From: Bacillota bacterium
Lineage (GTDB): Bacteria > Bacillota > Clostridia > Oscillospirales > Oscillospiraceae
Assembly: GCA_028719885.1 (NCBI GenBank)
Contig: JAQYLT010000082.1
Coordinates: 1 to 64,000 of the forward strand
DNA length: 64,000 nucleotides
Direction of reading: 5' to 3'
The notes beneath the pieces are model-generated. The model was not told the DNA's origin. It made no database searches and saw only the letters and a program-made list of their open reading frames with translations. Numbering within the stretch: the stretch's first letter is position 1; every line of letters begins with the position of its first letter. This document shows positions 13,501-59,367 of the stretch, one piece after another. The position numbers and the translations under genes were made by a program.

Positions 13501-13542
13501 TCAGTTTGTTGATCTGCTTCACACAGAAAGGAGAATATGGCG

Positions 13543-13778
13543 AGATGTTTCGTAGGGAATGCATTTATGCATTCCGCTTGCGTATTGTTTCAAAATCGGT
13601 CGGATAAATGGTGAAACGCCAATCATATGTTCCCCAAAATGCCATTCAGCGAACTGTGGTGATCATCAGGGGCTTCGGAACGGATAAATCCGTTCCCTAC
13701 GAAAAGAACCAACATTTTCCCATTCAACGCACCGGCGCAAAACCGTTACCCAGGTGGAATGCATGAATGCATTCCTTT
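13543..13778. repeat. Composite palindromic-repeat element R1 (units 13551-13576, 13676-13701, 13756-13775)
   Basis: CGTAGGGAATGCATTTATGCATTCCG ... CGGAACGGATAAATCCGTTCCCTACG ... GGAATGCATGAATGCATTCC. Confidence 0.9.
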
Positions 13779-14944: not shown

Positions 14945-15018
14945 GGAGGTACCGGCCAGATTTGAACTGGCGAATGAAGGTTTTGCAGACCTTTGCCTTA
15001 CCACTTGGCCACGGTACC
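14944..15018 (-). tRNA. tRNA-Cys (GCA), CCA encoded
   Basis: Cloverleaf read on minus strand; acceptor GGTACCG/CGGTACC; anticodon loop TCTGCAAAA. Confidence 0.93.
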
Positions 15019-15058
15019 ATATGAAATAAGGAACGCAGGGAGGCGTTCCTTATTGCTT

Positions 15059-15134
15059 TGGAGCGGGTGACGAGGCTCGAACTCGCTACCTCCACCTTGG
15101 CAAGGTGGCGCTCTACCGGATGAGCTACACCCGC
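15059..15134 (-). tRNA. tRNA-Gly (GCC), CCA encoded
   Basis: GCGGGTGTAGCTC...CTTGCCAAG...CACCCGCTCCA. Confidence 0.95.
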
Positions 15135-15180
15135 ATCTAGCCGACCTCCGGAACCGGTTGGATTCCGGAGCAGTCGGTTG

Positions 15181-15256
<76 letters not shown>

Positions 15257-15304
15257 ATGTCGAGTGGAATTGGCACTCCACTCGGATGCGAAAGATATTG
15301 AAAA

Positions 15305-15381
15305 TGGCGACCCGGAACGGACTCGAACCGTCGACCTCCAGCGTGACAGGCTGGCGTGCTAACCGACTGCACCACCGGGCC
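15305..15381 (-). tRNA. tRNA-Asp (GTC), CCA encoded
   Basis: GGCCCGGTGGTGCAGTCGG...CTGTCAC...CCGGGTCGCCA. Confidence 0.95.
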
Positions 15382-15388
15382 AGATAAT

Positions 15389-15464
15389 TGGTGGGAACAA
15401 CAGGGCTCGAACCTGTGACCCCATGCTTGTAAGGCATGTGCTCTCCCAGCTGAGCTATGCTCCC
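15389..15464 (-). tRNA. tRNA-Val (TAC), CCA encoded
   Basis: GGGAGCATAGCTCAGCTGGGAGAGC...CTTACAA...CACCA. Confidence 0.95.
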
Positions 15465-19967: not shown

Positions 19968-20115
19968 AAAATCGGTGTTTTTCAAGATGTTTCGTAGGGA
20001 ATGCATTCATGCATTCCGCCCTGGTGGTTCATAAACCTTTCGGAATGCATAAATGCGTTCCCTACGCACACGTTGGCATATATTCCGTTGGGCGAACCCG
20101 CCAAATTCCAATTTT
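19968..20115. repeat. Composite palindromic-repeat element R2 (units 19993-20018, 20041-20066)
   Basis: CGTAGGGAATGCATTCATGCATTCCG and CGGAATGCATAAATGCGTTCCCTACG; right end CCCGCCAAATTCCAATTTT. Confidence 0.88.
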
Positions 20116-26287: not shown

Positions 26288-26407
26288 TGCGTATCCTATC
26301 CTCCTTACTCCGCAGAAAAGGAATCTATCTGCTTTTGCTCATTTAGGTTATCAGCTTAATGCAGCATAAGGGGCGTTTCGTAAATTAAGATATAAGCCAG
26401 TCGTGTG

Positions 26408-26661
26408 CGTAGGGAACGGATTTATCCGTTCCGCCCTGCTCGTAAATCACCGTGGTTCATTGAATCGAGGAATGTTGTGTTTTGCGTAGGGAACGGATTT
26501 ATCCGTTCCGAAAGGTTCGATGATCACCGCAGTTCGTTGCGTGGCATTTGGGGGAGTGGAACGGATAAATCCGTTCCCTACGAAAAGAATCAACATTTTT
26601 CCATTCAACATACCCTAATAAAGACGTTACCGGGGCGGAATGCATAAATGCATTCCCTACG
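26408..26661. repeat. Composite palindromic-repeat element R3 (units 26408-26433, 26485-26510, 26558-26582, 26636-26661)
   Basis: Four units, two forward then two reverse. Confidence 0.9.
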
Positions 26662-26754
26662 AATTGTTAATTGACAAAAGAACAATATAGCTGCGTAAAG
26701 CCGATAACCAAATTTCTCATTAGTCAGGGATATCTTATATCTTATATCTCGTTC

Positions 26755-33887: not shown

Positions 33888-33902
33888 CTGCTGAAGCTTT
33901 AC

Positions 33903-34160
33903 GTTTTGCGTAGGGAACGGATTCATCCGTTCCGAAACGCGGGGGAACATCCTTGGCTCATTGGATGGCAGCGAGTCCCAGTTTTCAACATTTTTCCATT
34001 CAACATACCTCGATAAAAATGTTACCCAGGCGGAACGCATGAATGCGTTCCCTACGAAAAAATCATTGTTTTGCGATTTGTCGAACCTTGGTGATTCATA
34101 AACCTTTCGGAATGCATCAATGCATTCCATACGAAACATGCTGACAAATCCCAATTTACA
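33903..34160. repeat. Composite palindromic-repeat element R4 (units 33909-33934, 34031-34056, 34108-34133)
   Basis: CGTAGGGAACGGATTCATCCGTTCCG, CGGAACGCATGAATGCGTTCCCTACG, CGGAATGCATCAATGCATTCCATACG. Confidence 0.9.
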
Positions 34161-36916: not shown

Positions 36917-37136
36917 AAATTGAAATTTGTCGGGATGTTTCGTAGGGAACGGATTTATCCGTTCCGCCCGGTAACGTTTTTATGGGGTGCACATTGAATG
37001 GAAAAATGTTGAAAATTGGGACCTTTTACCATCCAATAAACCATGGGTGGTAACTGACGTTTCGGAACGGATAAATCCGTTCCCTACGAACACGTTGGAA
37101 GACATCCCATCCAACGAACCCGTCAAATTCCAATTT
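36917..37136. mobile_element. 220-bp MITE-like element R5 (units 36941-36966, 37074-37099) with terminal inverted repeats
   Basis: Starts AAATTGAAATTTGTCGGG, ends CCCGTCAAATTCCAATTT; same length and about 97% identical to 39869-40088. Confidence 0.85.
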
Positions 37137-37200
37137 GTCTATTTGCTTTGTGAATAGAATTCGACCCCCCATTCCGTTTTTGGGGAATGGGGGGTAATTT

Positions 37201-38574
37201 TCAGATGGTTTCCCAGGTCAGATTGCCGCCGTAGGAAACGGTGGCTTTCCGATTCCAGCCCTGGGCATCCTGGGGATAGAAGGCGGTGGCCTGGACGCCC
37301 TTGAAGGCATTGTCCCAGATCGTCGGGGCAGCCCCCTGGAACGTCACGCTCCACATGCCGCAGTTGGAGAAGGCCTCCGTCCCGATTTCGGTGACGGCCG
37401 CGGGAATCCGGATGGTTTCCAGCTTGGAGCAGTAGCTGAACGCATATCTGCCGATGCGCTCCAGGGTCTCCGGAAGCACCACGGCAGTCAGCCCCCGGCA
37501 GTTCCGGAAGACATAGTTTCCGATTTCCGTCACGCCGCTGGGAATCATCACCGAGGTGATGGAGGCGCAGTCCCGGAAAGCGCCGTCGCCAATGGTCCGA
37601 ACGGAGCCCGGAATGGAAAGGGATGTCAGGCTGCTGCAGCCGGCAAAGGCCTCCGCGCCGATTTTTTCCAGATTGATGGAGAGCTCCGCGGATTTCAGCC
37701 CGGTGCAGCCATAAAAGGCCATTTCAGAGATGGTGGTCACCGCCTCCGGGATGGCAACGGACCGCAGGCTGCTGCAGCCATAGAAAGCCTGGCTGCCGAT
37801 GAACGACACATTTTCCGGAATGGACACATCCACCAGACTGGTGCAGCCCCGGAAGGCGGCGGTTTCAATGGCGGTGACGGAATCCGGAATGGCAACGGTG
37901 TTCAGCTTGGTGCAGCCGAAGAAGGCGTAGCCCCCCAGGGTATCCACCGTGCCGGGAATTTGAATCCAGGTGAGGGCGCTGCAATTGGCGAACGCCGCCC
38001 AGCCGATGCTTTTCAGGCTTCCAGGCAGCTTGAGCTCCTCCAGGGATGTACAGCCCCGGAAGGCCTCGTCCCCGATGGTCTCCAATTTATCCGGCAGGGT
38101 GAGCTTTTCCAGATTGATGCAGCCCACAAAGGCAAGATTGCCGATGTTGGTCACGCCCTCGGCCAGCACCACTTCTTTGATGGCTTCCCGGCTCTCGCTC
38201 CAGGGTGCAGGGCGGCCCTCCCGGAAATCAAACATCTCTCCAGTGCCGCTGACGGTCAGCACGCCTTTTTCGGACAGCTCCCAGTTCAGGGAAACGCCGC
38301 AGATGCCGGAGCCGGGCAGATTCTGAGCATCGAGGGGCACCGTGGGATTGGCATATTTCTGCTCCTCCGCCTGAACCAGAGCGTTGCGAACCTCCTCCGG
38401 CAGGCTGCTGAGGAACTGATCCAGGATGTCTCCCGCGCCGATTTCAATCAGCCGGTCAAACTCCGCCTGGGTCTCCGGTGAAATTTCCACCGCCTCTGCC
38501 CGGGGCCCGGGGAGAAGCAGGCAGGTACATAGCACAGCAGCAAGCCCAAGCTTCCATTGATTTTTCATATTCAA
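37201..38574 (-). CDS. Secreted BspA-like leucine-rich-repeat (LRR_5) protein
   Basis: Signal peptide plus about 10 repeats IG..AF.GC.SL..V.IP..V. Confidence 0.88.
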   Translation of the reverse strand: MNMKNQWKLGLAAVLCTCLLLPGPRAEAVEISPETQAEFDRLIEIGAGDILDQFLSSLPEEVRNALVQAEEQKYANPTVPLDAQNLPGSGICGVSLNWELSEKGVLTVSGTGEMFDFREGRPAPWSESREAIKEVVLAEGVTNIGNLAFVGCINLEKLTLPDKLETIGDEAFRGCTSLEELKLPGSLKSIGWAAFANCSALTWIQIPGTVDTLGGYAFFGCTKLNTVAIPDSVTAIETAAFRGCTSLVDVSIPENVSFIGSQAFYGCSSLRSVAIPEAVTTISEMAFYGCTGLKSAELSINLEKIGAEAFAGCSSLTSLSIPGSVRTIGDGAFRDCASITSVMIPSGVTEIGNYVFRNCRGLTAVVLPETLERIGRYAFSYCSKLETIRIPAAVTEIGTEAFSNCGMWSVTFQGAAPTIWDNAFKGVQATAFYPQDAQGWNRKATVSYGGNLTWETI

Positions 38575-38619
38575 TCAACCGTCCTTTCTGATGTGCCGTG
38601 AGAAAACAAAGAACCTCTC

Positions 38620-39615
38620 TTAACTCTGTTCCGCTCCCTTTTCCTTTTTGCTTCCGCCTCTGCGGCGGCGTCTGCGCTGCCGGGCCGGTGCCTCGGGCTC
38701 CGCCTTCTGCGCCCGCCGGGCGTAGGCCTCCGCCGCCTCGGAGGTGGCCTCATAGGTCAACCGGCTGACCCGAATGGTTCCGTCGGGCTGGGCGGAAAGC
38801 CGGACCCGGATGAGGAATTTCCCGTGGTCGGCGCAGGTGGCCAGGTCCATATACCGGTGCCCCGGCTGGGCAAACCACCGGGAACCCAGCATCTGCCTGC
38901 CGCAGACAGGACAGATATTCTCGCAGCCCGTCATGGCGGCCAGGGCCTCCCGCTTGTCGGCATAGTCCCGGAAGACCTTGCGGTCCAGGCAGCCGGGCAG
39001 CTCCGCGCCGTGGAAGCCGTTCTCATGGCTCCGCACCGCCTGGTCATACTCGGCAATGCCCCGGGACAGGTCCAGCCGCTGGCAGATCAGGGCCGTGTGA
39101 TAAGCGTCCCCCAGGGCATCGTGGGCCGGGCGGCTGGCCTCGATCTGAAAGGTATCCATGGCGGTTTTCAGGGCTTTCTGGGAGTTGGAGCCGTCGGTCT
39201 GGGCATTGAAAACCATCTGGACATTGTACCATCTCTCCGTCCAGCTCTGGTCCAGAGAAAACAGCTGCAGATTTTCCCGGAGGATGCCAATGTCGTCAAA
39301 GCCCCAGGTGAGAAACACCGGGCTCTCCCCGCACCAAGTACGGAATTGCTCCATGGCCTCGGGGAACGGAATCCCCTCCGCCCGGAGGCGGGTCTCCTTG
39401 ATGCCGGTGAGCTTGCTGACCCGGCGGTTTAAGTGCCTGTAATATTTGGGAGCGACCATCACCTGAAATTCATCCCCGGGGCAGCCCTGCTCGTCCAGCC
39501 GCACGGCACCGATCTGGATGATCTCCCCCCGGATGGCCACAGGCAGCACCTTTTTGGCCGAGGGTGAACCGGGCCAGGGCTGATTCCACTCCATATCCAA
39601 AACAATAAAACTCAT
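38620..39615 (-). CDS. DEDD-type 3'-5' exonuclease-domain protein
   Basis: FIVLDMEWNQ...EIIQIGAVRLDE; PAHDALGDAYHTALI. Confidence 0.8.
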   Translation of the reverse strand: MSFIVLDMEWNQPWPGSPSAKKVLPVAIRGEIIQIGAVRLDEQGCPGDEFQVMVAPKYYRHLNRRVSKLTGIKETRLRAEGIPFPEAMEQFRTWCGESPVFLTWGFDDIGILRENLQLFSLDQSWTERWYNVQMVFNAQTDGSNSQKALKTAMDTFQIEASRPAHDALGDAYHTALICQRLDLSRGIAEYDQAVRSHENGFHGAELPGCLDRKVFRDYADKREALAAMTGCENICPVCGRQMLGSRWFAQPGHRYMDLATCADHGKFLIRVRLSAQPDGTIRVSRLTYEATSEAAEAYARRAQKAEPEAPARQRRRRRRGGSKKEKGAEQS

Positions 39616-39868
39616 TACAAAACCCTCTATCTAATCGTCCTGTTACCGTATCATACCACATTGGAGGGGCTTCTGTAAACAGGAAGTTTCGCCGCGGCGG
39701 GATTTCCATGGTAACATTTTTGTGAATGTCCTGGAATTCGCGGTTTTTGGGCATGACAGATATTCCCTGATTTGGTATAATATGGTCAGAGGTGATCAGA
39801 ATAGATTTGCACCAAGTCGGAAAATTCATCGCCCAGCTCCGGAATGGACGAATGCCCCCAGCGTCAGT

Positions 39869-40088
39869 AAATTGGAATTTGCCGGGATGTTTCGTAGGGA
39901 ACGGATTTATCCGTTCCGCCCGGTAACGTTTTTATGGGGTGCACGTTGAATGGAAAAATGTTGAAAATTGGGACCCTTTACCATCCAATAAACCATGGGT
40001 GGTAACTGACGTTTCGGAACGGATAAATCCGTTCCCTACGAACACGTTGGAAAACATCCCATCCAACGAACCCGCCAAATTCCAATTT
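39869..40088. mobile_element. 220-bp MITE-like element R6 (units 39893-39918, 40015-40040) with terminal inverted repeats
   Basis: Starts AAATTGGAATTTGCCGGG, ends CCCGCCAAATTCCAATTT (17/18 inverted match). Confidence 0.87.
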
Positions 40089-50898: not shown

Positions 50899-51296
50899 GA
50901 AAACGCCTCCCCCACGCATTCAATGGGTGCAAAAAATGGCCCCCTGCAATCCAATCCATGTATGGGAGCCTGCCATTGGCAAGTCCCCTTGAGAAATGGA
51001 CAAAAAAAGCCCACACATACAGCGGTACGCGTCGGCAACTGGCTGGGTCCGTGACCCCCTATAGTTTTGCGTCCCCTCCTCGCAAAGGGTTTGCCAGAAT
51101 ATTTAAAAACAGTTCATCTTTGTCACTGAAATTATACAATTTCTGGATTTCAAAAGTCAAGTCTTTTTCCGAAAAAGGTGCACAAAAAGGGGGGACCTTT
51201 CCTTGTGTATTTTGCAGATTTATTCCAGACAATATGTCTTTTTCAGAACCGGGATGCACTTTTTCGCCCGGGATTTTTTCTTCTTCAAAATAAAGC

Positions 51297-51596: not shown

Positions 51597-51649
51597 GTTA
51601 CCTTTTCAGGCAGCATCCGTTTAATAGCATGTGCGTATTGGTTTTTGTT

Positions 51650-51850
51650 CGTAGGGAATGCATTCATGCATTCCGCACGTTATTGTTTCCAAAAGGGCGG
51701 GGTGAATGGTAAAATATCGAAAATATGTTTCAAGAAATACCATTCAACGAACCATGGAGATCACCCAACGTTTCGGAACGGATAAATCCGTTCCCTACGA
51801 ACACGTCGTCACATTTCCCGTTTATCAACCAGCCATATTTCAATTGACCG
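51650..51850. repeat. Composite palindromic-repeat element R7 between T-box terminator and pheS (units 51650-51675, 51774-51799)
   Basis: CGTAGGGAATGCATTCATGCATTCCG and CGGAACGGATAAATCCGTTCCCTACG. Confidence 0.88.
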
Positions 51851-59057: not shown

Positions 59058-59367
59058 GACAAATTTGGAATTTGGCGGGCAGATTCGTATGGGGTATGTT
59101 CCAACGTGTGCGTAGGGAACGGATTTATCCGTTCCGAAACGTCGATTAGCCTCCAAGGTTCGTTGGATGGTAACGGGTTCCAAATAATTCCAACATTTTT
59201 CCATCTAACATACCCCCGATAAAAACATTACCGAGGCGGAACGCATGAATGCGTTCCCTACGCAAATAACAGCATTTTTATGATGATTTGAAACTGGATC
59301 CTTACCAAAACGGGCGGAACGGATAAATCCGTTCCCTACGAAACATCTCTGCAAATTCCAATTTGTC
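59058..59367. mobile_element. 310-bp MITE-like element R8 (units 59111-59136, 59238-59263, 59315-59340) with terminal inverted repeats
   Basis: GACAAATTTGGAATTTGGCGGG at left; inverted CAAATTCCAATTTGTC at right. Confidence 0.85.

Follow-up and report, generated by a model that had tools for sequence, protein, structure and literature searches.

Two near-identical 220-bp sequences lie 3 kb apart in a 64,000-nt stretch of an Oscillospiraceae contig (the window, meaning that whole stretch), on either side of genes for an LRR-repeat protein and an exonuclease, and this raises the question of what kind of element they are and how they came to be there. A first-pass annotation had taken them for non-autonomous, MITE-like mobile DNA that spread recently. 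The genome to which they belong (G000) is a Faecousia-like MAG of a gut bacterium, of 2.86 Mb in 83 contigs, the assembly being 96.6% complete, and the relatives named below are Faecousia/Oscillospiraceae MAGs. Analyses of the own genome that were based on stretches refer to sampled stretches covering about 42% of it.

The basic anatomy first read from the sequence was confirmed. Both copies are exactly 220 bp long and differ at 6 positions (97.3% identity, E ~1e-105), while the 30 nt outside them are only 53% and 20% identical. In copy 2, 17 of the 18 terminal positions (AAATTGGAATTTGCCGGG and CCCGCCAAATTCCAATTT) can pair with each other. Within each copy, two 28-nt arms are 100% complementary and stand 96 nt apart, on either side of the conserved spacer, and each arm is itself a palindrome that consists of GTAG followed by GGAACGGAT TT ATCCGTTCC. 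No ORF of at least 80 aa was present within either copy, in agreement with the lack of coding capacity noted before. The copies are thus short and non-coding and carry a 13-bp box, here named E, inverted at both ends, as a MITE does. In its predicted fold as single-stranded DNA, the whole of copy 2 forms a single long hairpin (-64.1 kcal/mol, z = -9.0). A structured RNA family was rejected as an explanation, since Rfam gave no match for either copy except one below threshold at the end of copy 2. The coordinates are collected in Table 1.

Table 1. Features of the 220-bp copies and of their relatives in the window.
Feature	Position	Strand	Remark
Copy 1, E-bounded mosaic (E-arm-REP-spacer-inverted REP-arm-E)	36917..37136	+	220 bp
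Copy 1 left end box E, AAATTGAAATTTG	36917..36929	+	
Copy 1 left GTAG-tagged REP palindrome, stem class A (GGAACGGAT)	36939..36966	+	
Copy 1 conserved spacer, 96 nt	36967..37062	+	67 matches in 1.2 Mb of genome
Copy 1 right REP, inverted	37063..37090	-	
Copy 1 right end box E, CAAATTCCAATTT	37124..37136	-	
XRE-type regulator gene remnant (first part), cut off at copy 2	39790..39868	+	apparently intact longer homologue in closest species (L032)
Copy 2, 220-bp element	39869..40088	+	6 differences vs copy 1; one-hairpin fold z -9.0
Copy 2 left end box E, AAATTGGAATTTG	39869..39881	+	
Copy 2 left GTAG-tagged REP palindrome	39891..39918	+	
Copy 2 conserved spacer, 96 nt	39919..40014	+	
Copy 2 right REP, inverted	40015..40042	-	
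Copy 2 right end box E	40076..40088	-	
Family member, diverged, REP-containing	13533..13775	.	
Family member, partial, one E end	20035..20114	+	
REP cluster, same family as 220-bp copies	26402..26663	-	
Family member, diverged	33901..34157	-	
Family member, old, diverged (71.5%)	51648..51845	+	
Family member ~300 bp, E both ends, mixed REP classes	59062..59365	-	

Copy 1 is placed between convergent genes, and copy 2 lies upstream of the exonuclease gene and downstream of a sortase gene. Two near-identical copies do exist, but as a pair they are not special: the window holds at least six further relatives and the genome hundreds of end boxes and palindromes. With one family element per ~8 kb of the window, a distance of 3 kb between two copies is nothing unusual. 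The bracketing of the LRR and exonuclease genes, to which meaning had been given, is likewise incidental, because such elements recur every ~8 kb and the exonuclease gene adjoins the spmB-like gene in relatives that lack the LRR gene. A composite transposon carrying both genes was rejected on the same comparison. The LRR-repeat protein gene itself (window 37201-38574) has been added between the spmB-like and exonuclease genes; L035, L040 and L054 lack it at this place. Elsewhere in the window, five tRNA genes are clustered on the minus strand (14947-15464), and a c-di-GMP-I riboswitch is found on the minus strand at 51031-51105.

When up to one mismatch is allowed, the 2.86 Mb of the genome contain 324 instances of the end box AAATTGGAATTTG and 378 of the palindrome CGTAGGGAACGGATNNATCCGTTCC, with no occurrence of either reversed control pattern, and the 324 end boxes suggest something like 160 elements. 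A search of the genome with the 220-bp sequence gave at least 120 match rows, including at least 40 long matches (scores were computed for 40 of the 347 first-look candidates). Among the scored matches, several are full-length 220-bp copies at unrelated loci, 95-97% identical, so the further copies with the same end points that mobility calls for are plentiful. The elements in a sample of ~0.41 Mb vary in length between a minimal 78 bp (E-REP-E) and over 400 bp; their arms measure 11, ~35 or ~88 nt, and each has from one to several REPs. The 13-bp E is near-palindromic, and most of its positions are more than 95% conserved; beyond it the sequence is near-random save for a weak RYYG. Two variants were also seen: an E-bounded element at L159 14708-15012 contains another palindrome (CTCCCCCTCTGGGGGAGCTGCCGAGCGAAGTGAGGCTGAGGGGG) and lacks GTAG-REPs of the main classes, and beside several elements (L151 13785, L167 1403 and 15187) stands a module of 85 bp enclosed by two E boxes.

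The core of the elements points to one known class of enzyme. The REPs that RAYT/TnpAREP processes are characterised by a GTAG at the foot of the hairpin (PMC8266576, PMC3733652), and 238 GTAG-tagged hairpins were counted in 807 kb, with none for six control tags. Judged by its sequence, the palindrome of the 220-bp copies is a GTAG-tagged REP of the RAYT type. The stems of the GTAG-tagged hairpins fall into the classes GGAACGGAT (A), GGAATGCAT (B) and GGAACGCAT (A'), plus minor ones. Around the common spacer, whose 67 matches were located by BLAST in 1.2 Mb, the left and right REPs are A/A in 23 cases, B/A in 13, A'/A' in 4, A'/A in 3 and B/A' in 3. Since the stem classes switch around one spacer while most of the palindromes remain self-complementary, the REPs change as units.

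The enzymes that go with these REPs were found in congeners. In G002, a RAYT gene sits between two inverted copies of exactly the window REP; its product matches the REP-associated tyrosine transposase model NF047646 (E 2.6e-16, below the model cut-off). In G017, a RAYT gene is flanked and interrupted by REPs of classes A and B, the two main classes of the own genome. Several other RAYT genes of the genus are flanked by GTAG-REPs of their own, some with in-frame REPs, and the best match of the genus RAYT proteins is the NCBIfam REP-associated tyrosine transposase model, with scores below the cut-off. The RAYT genes at L128, L129, L135 and L139 contain inserted REP copies that keep the reading frame, and in-frame REPs in RAYT genes have been reported for TnpAREP subclass 2.4 (PMC6006769). 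In the own genome, one interrupted Y1_Tnp gene and two fragments were detected, all decayed or truncated and belonging with the REP class GTAGGGACACCC, and no intact class-A RAYT is present in the 96.6% complete assembly. An own-genome RAYT was therefore rejected as the mobiliser.

The 220-bp copies accordingly share with REPINs the inverted pair of GTAG-REPs. A RAYT gene flanked by the window REP exists in G002 (on both sides) and in G017 and not in the own genome, an intact cognate RAYT is likewise missing from the own genome, and the repeat unit reaches past the REPs to E. They might nevertheless be pure REPINs or BIMEs moved by RAYT only, in which case E and the arms would be hitch-hiking flanks, either fixed through descent or explained by insertion into a palindromic repeat already present. 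Such an origin would account for REPs identical to those flanking RAYT genes, for inverted dimers at a 96-nt spacing and for classes that switch as units; moreover, the window REP occurs without E in G002, G017 and G065, and Anabaena has GTAG dimers nested in longer palindromes (PMC3733652). What it does not lead one to expect is that E and the arms are included, with unchanged end points, in numerous near-identical copies; transfer from REP to REP would not produce this by itself, and we consider such an origin improbable.

A second class of enzyme is suggested by the sequence outside E. In some elements, an outer repeat (TGTGCATATCGGYTTNACTCAGC) stands immediately outside E. The outer repeat TGCNTATCGGYTTNACTCAGC was found in 51 of 136 congener genomes (control near 0), where it forms the ends of ISs of ~1 kb that encode IS1595-family transposases (E 4e-52). 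In the own genome, 23% of the E-flanks match the outer repeat at a score of at least 10, against 0.4-0.7% in controls. The majority of E-flanks carry no remnant of it, which fits either decay or a mechanism specific to E; the IS1595-type repeat is not recognisable at copy 2, and copy 1 retains at most a weak trace of it. E itself is absent from the IS1595 elements and from RAYT flanks. No IS1595 transposase was detected in the own assembly or in that of the closest relative, G165, and an own-genome IS1595 transposase was thus dropped as a candidate mobiliser.

It could also be proposed that these are ordinary MITEs ending at E and moved by a DDE transposase still to be named, with the REPs as passengers or subterminal palindromes. 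E is indeed the sharpest conserved boundary, fixed 220-bp copies occur at unrelated loci, and some E-bounded elements have no class-A REP. Against this, a 4-bp direct repeat at E was found in 0 of 59 elements, with no offset above the shuffled control, so that the TA or other target-site duplication suggested at first was not borne out. Furthermore, no autonomous element ended by E was seen in the stretches sampled, several copies have E inside IS1595-type ends, and the E of the sister species is completely different. Such an origin appears unlikely.

G165, a sister species with 84% DNA identity and the nearest relative that was found, carries a different end box, AAATTGTTGTTTR (E'), together with other REPs. 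The pattern AAATTGNNNTTTR gave 491 matches in G165 (control 4); of the 100 matches listed, nearly all read AAATTGTTGTTT[AG] and 2 read AAATTGGAATTTG. In sampled stretches, the ratio of E to E' is 79:1 in the own genome and 1:31 in G165, and REP classes A and B were absent from sampled G165. No match to the body of the 220-bp element was found in 99 relatives. The recent spread first proposed is upheld for the 220-bp subfamily, which postdates the split from G165, as indicated by the absence of the body from the 99 relatives and of the REP class from sampled G165 and by the 95-97% identity of the copies.

Sites in the two species were then set side by side, where C30b and similar labels denote joined stretches of the genome sample. 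Elements are present in the own genome only at C33:58540 and C30b:13828, in G165 only at C36:1875 and C36:6390, and in both species at C46:7668/C11, C30b:39082/C1 and C78:70349/C14. Empty sites therefore exist, the own-only sites being vacant in G165, that is, in another species and not in another strain. Together with the shared end points at unrelated loci, they sustain the description of the family as non-autonomous, MITE-like mobile DNA. The flanks at C78/C14 can be aligned as far as the E box, at 86% on one side and 73% on the other, while the interiors, of 290 and 212 bp, have no real similarity; C30b/C1 behaves alike, except that on its left side a gap of 30 nt adjoins E. Since the flanks align up to the E box at both sites, the insertion points coincide within a few bases; in all, shared borders were seen at only three fully compared sites. 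On the G165 contig that matches the window, an E' end lies beside the LRR gene terminator, at the site of copy 1, and another element follows the XRE gene, whose own-genome counterpart is truncated beside copy 2. With elements in few intergenic regions, sites are shared more often than expected, by an informal estimate from a small sample.

Shared occupancy may alternatively reflect independent insertion into one hot spot instead of replacement of the filling, a proposal that rivals only the turnover part of our interpretation and is compatible with the rest. A preference for terminators and gene ends is possible, and few shared sites have been compared. Yet at C78/C14 and C30b/C1 the alignment of the flanks, at 70-86%, runs as far as the E box, save for the gap beside E on the left of C30b/C1, and E shows only a weak preference for particular flanks, which makes hot-spot insertion rather doubtful.

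The interpretation that we favour, with moderate confidence, is that the family consists of IS1595-type MITEs filled with RAYT REPINs and bounded by a species-specific 13-bp E, whose fillings are homogenised within species. The appearance of a MITE/REPIN chimera arises because the REPs match those flanking RAYT genes and about a quarter of the ends match IS1595 ends. Such an element would have originated as an IS1595-family MITE and been filled later by RAYT REPINs. From the outside inwards, each element comprises remnants of IS1595-type terminal repeats (in some copies), E, a short arm and an inverted GTAG-REP pair around the spacer. Insertion would take place in trans, with an IS1595-type DDE transposase presumably acting on the outer repeats. 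The REP fillings may be copied between sites by the RAYT HUH nuclease at GTAG hairpins and/or by gene conversion, and REP transfer and/or gene conversion would homogenise end boxes and fillings within a species. Because no IS1595 transposase was detected in the assembly and the only RAYTs there are decayed and of another REP class, the family is probably immobile now, its enzymes having presumably been lost, or is moved by an unassembled enzyme. We propose more tentatively, and at somewhat less than an even chance, that two unrelated classes of enzyme act on the chimeric elements, the outer ends being served by an IS1595 DDE transposase and the core by a RAYT HUH nuclease, and that fillings and end boxes are replaced in place, genome-wide and species-specifically, so that contents turn over between sister species while ancestral sites persist.

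The family resembles REPINs and BIMEs in the GTAG foot, the perfect 9-bp stem, the inverted doublets at less than 100-nt spacing, the hundreds of copies, the cognate RAYT flanked by the same REP (in congeners) and the in-frame REPs in RAYT genes (PMC6006769). It differs from them in that the unit boundary lies at the conserved E, 11-35 nt or more outside the REPs, REP classes are mixed within an element, and an intact cognate RAYT is absent from the own assembly. In Anabaena variabilis, GTAG-15 dimers are similarly nested in a longer inverted repeat that is not found without the dimer (PMC3733652). Those repeats have other sequences and belong to another phylum, whereas here the outer palindrome of some copies has been traced to IS1595 ends and the fillings vary between species at shared sites; the main text of that paper does not mention Firmicutes. 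With IS1595-family ISs and MITEs, some of the present elements share the outer repeat TGCNTATCGGYTTNACTCAGC, which matches the ends of congeneric ISs with IS1595 transposases, but most own elements lack recognisable outer repeats and contain a REPIN filling in place of a deleted transposase. BOX of Streptococcus pneumoniae and other modular miniature repeats are, like the present family, modular, high-copy, non-coding and interspersed; BOX modules, however, are not GTAG-REPs.

REPs and MITEs are commonly regarded as distinct classes with distinct enzymes, and here one family bears the signatures of both. Literature searches on REPIN/RAYT in Firmicutes, on REP in Ruminococcaceae and on MITEs with Faecalibacterium found nothing, and the present data document REP/RAYT systems in the Oscillospiraceae. 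The surprising part is the in-place turnover to which a pair of related species points, with identical insertion points and wholly different fillings and end boxes. Since the same insertion points have different contents, the concerted turnover of interspersed repeats becomes directly testable at orthologous sites.

Two further arrangements involve E and IS1595-type sequences. At L240 1002-2028 in G032, an IS1595-family IS lies between direct 12-bp repeats, AAATTGGAATTT, and is thus inserted in an E box. Palindromes of ~70 bp, in which two outer repeats surround a single E, occur in the own genome at C13:6567-6636 and at L154 636-690 and are possibly solo or ancestral forms.
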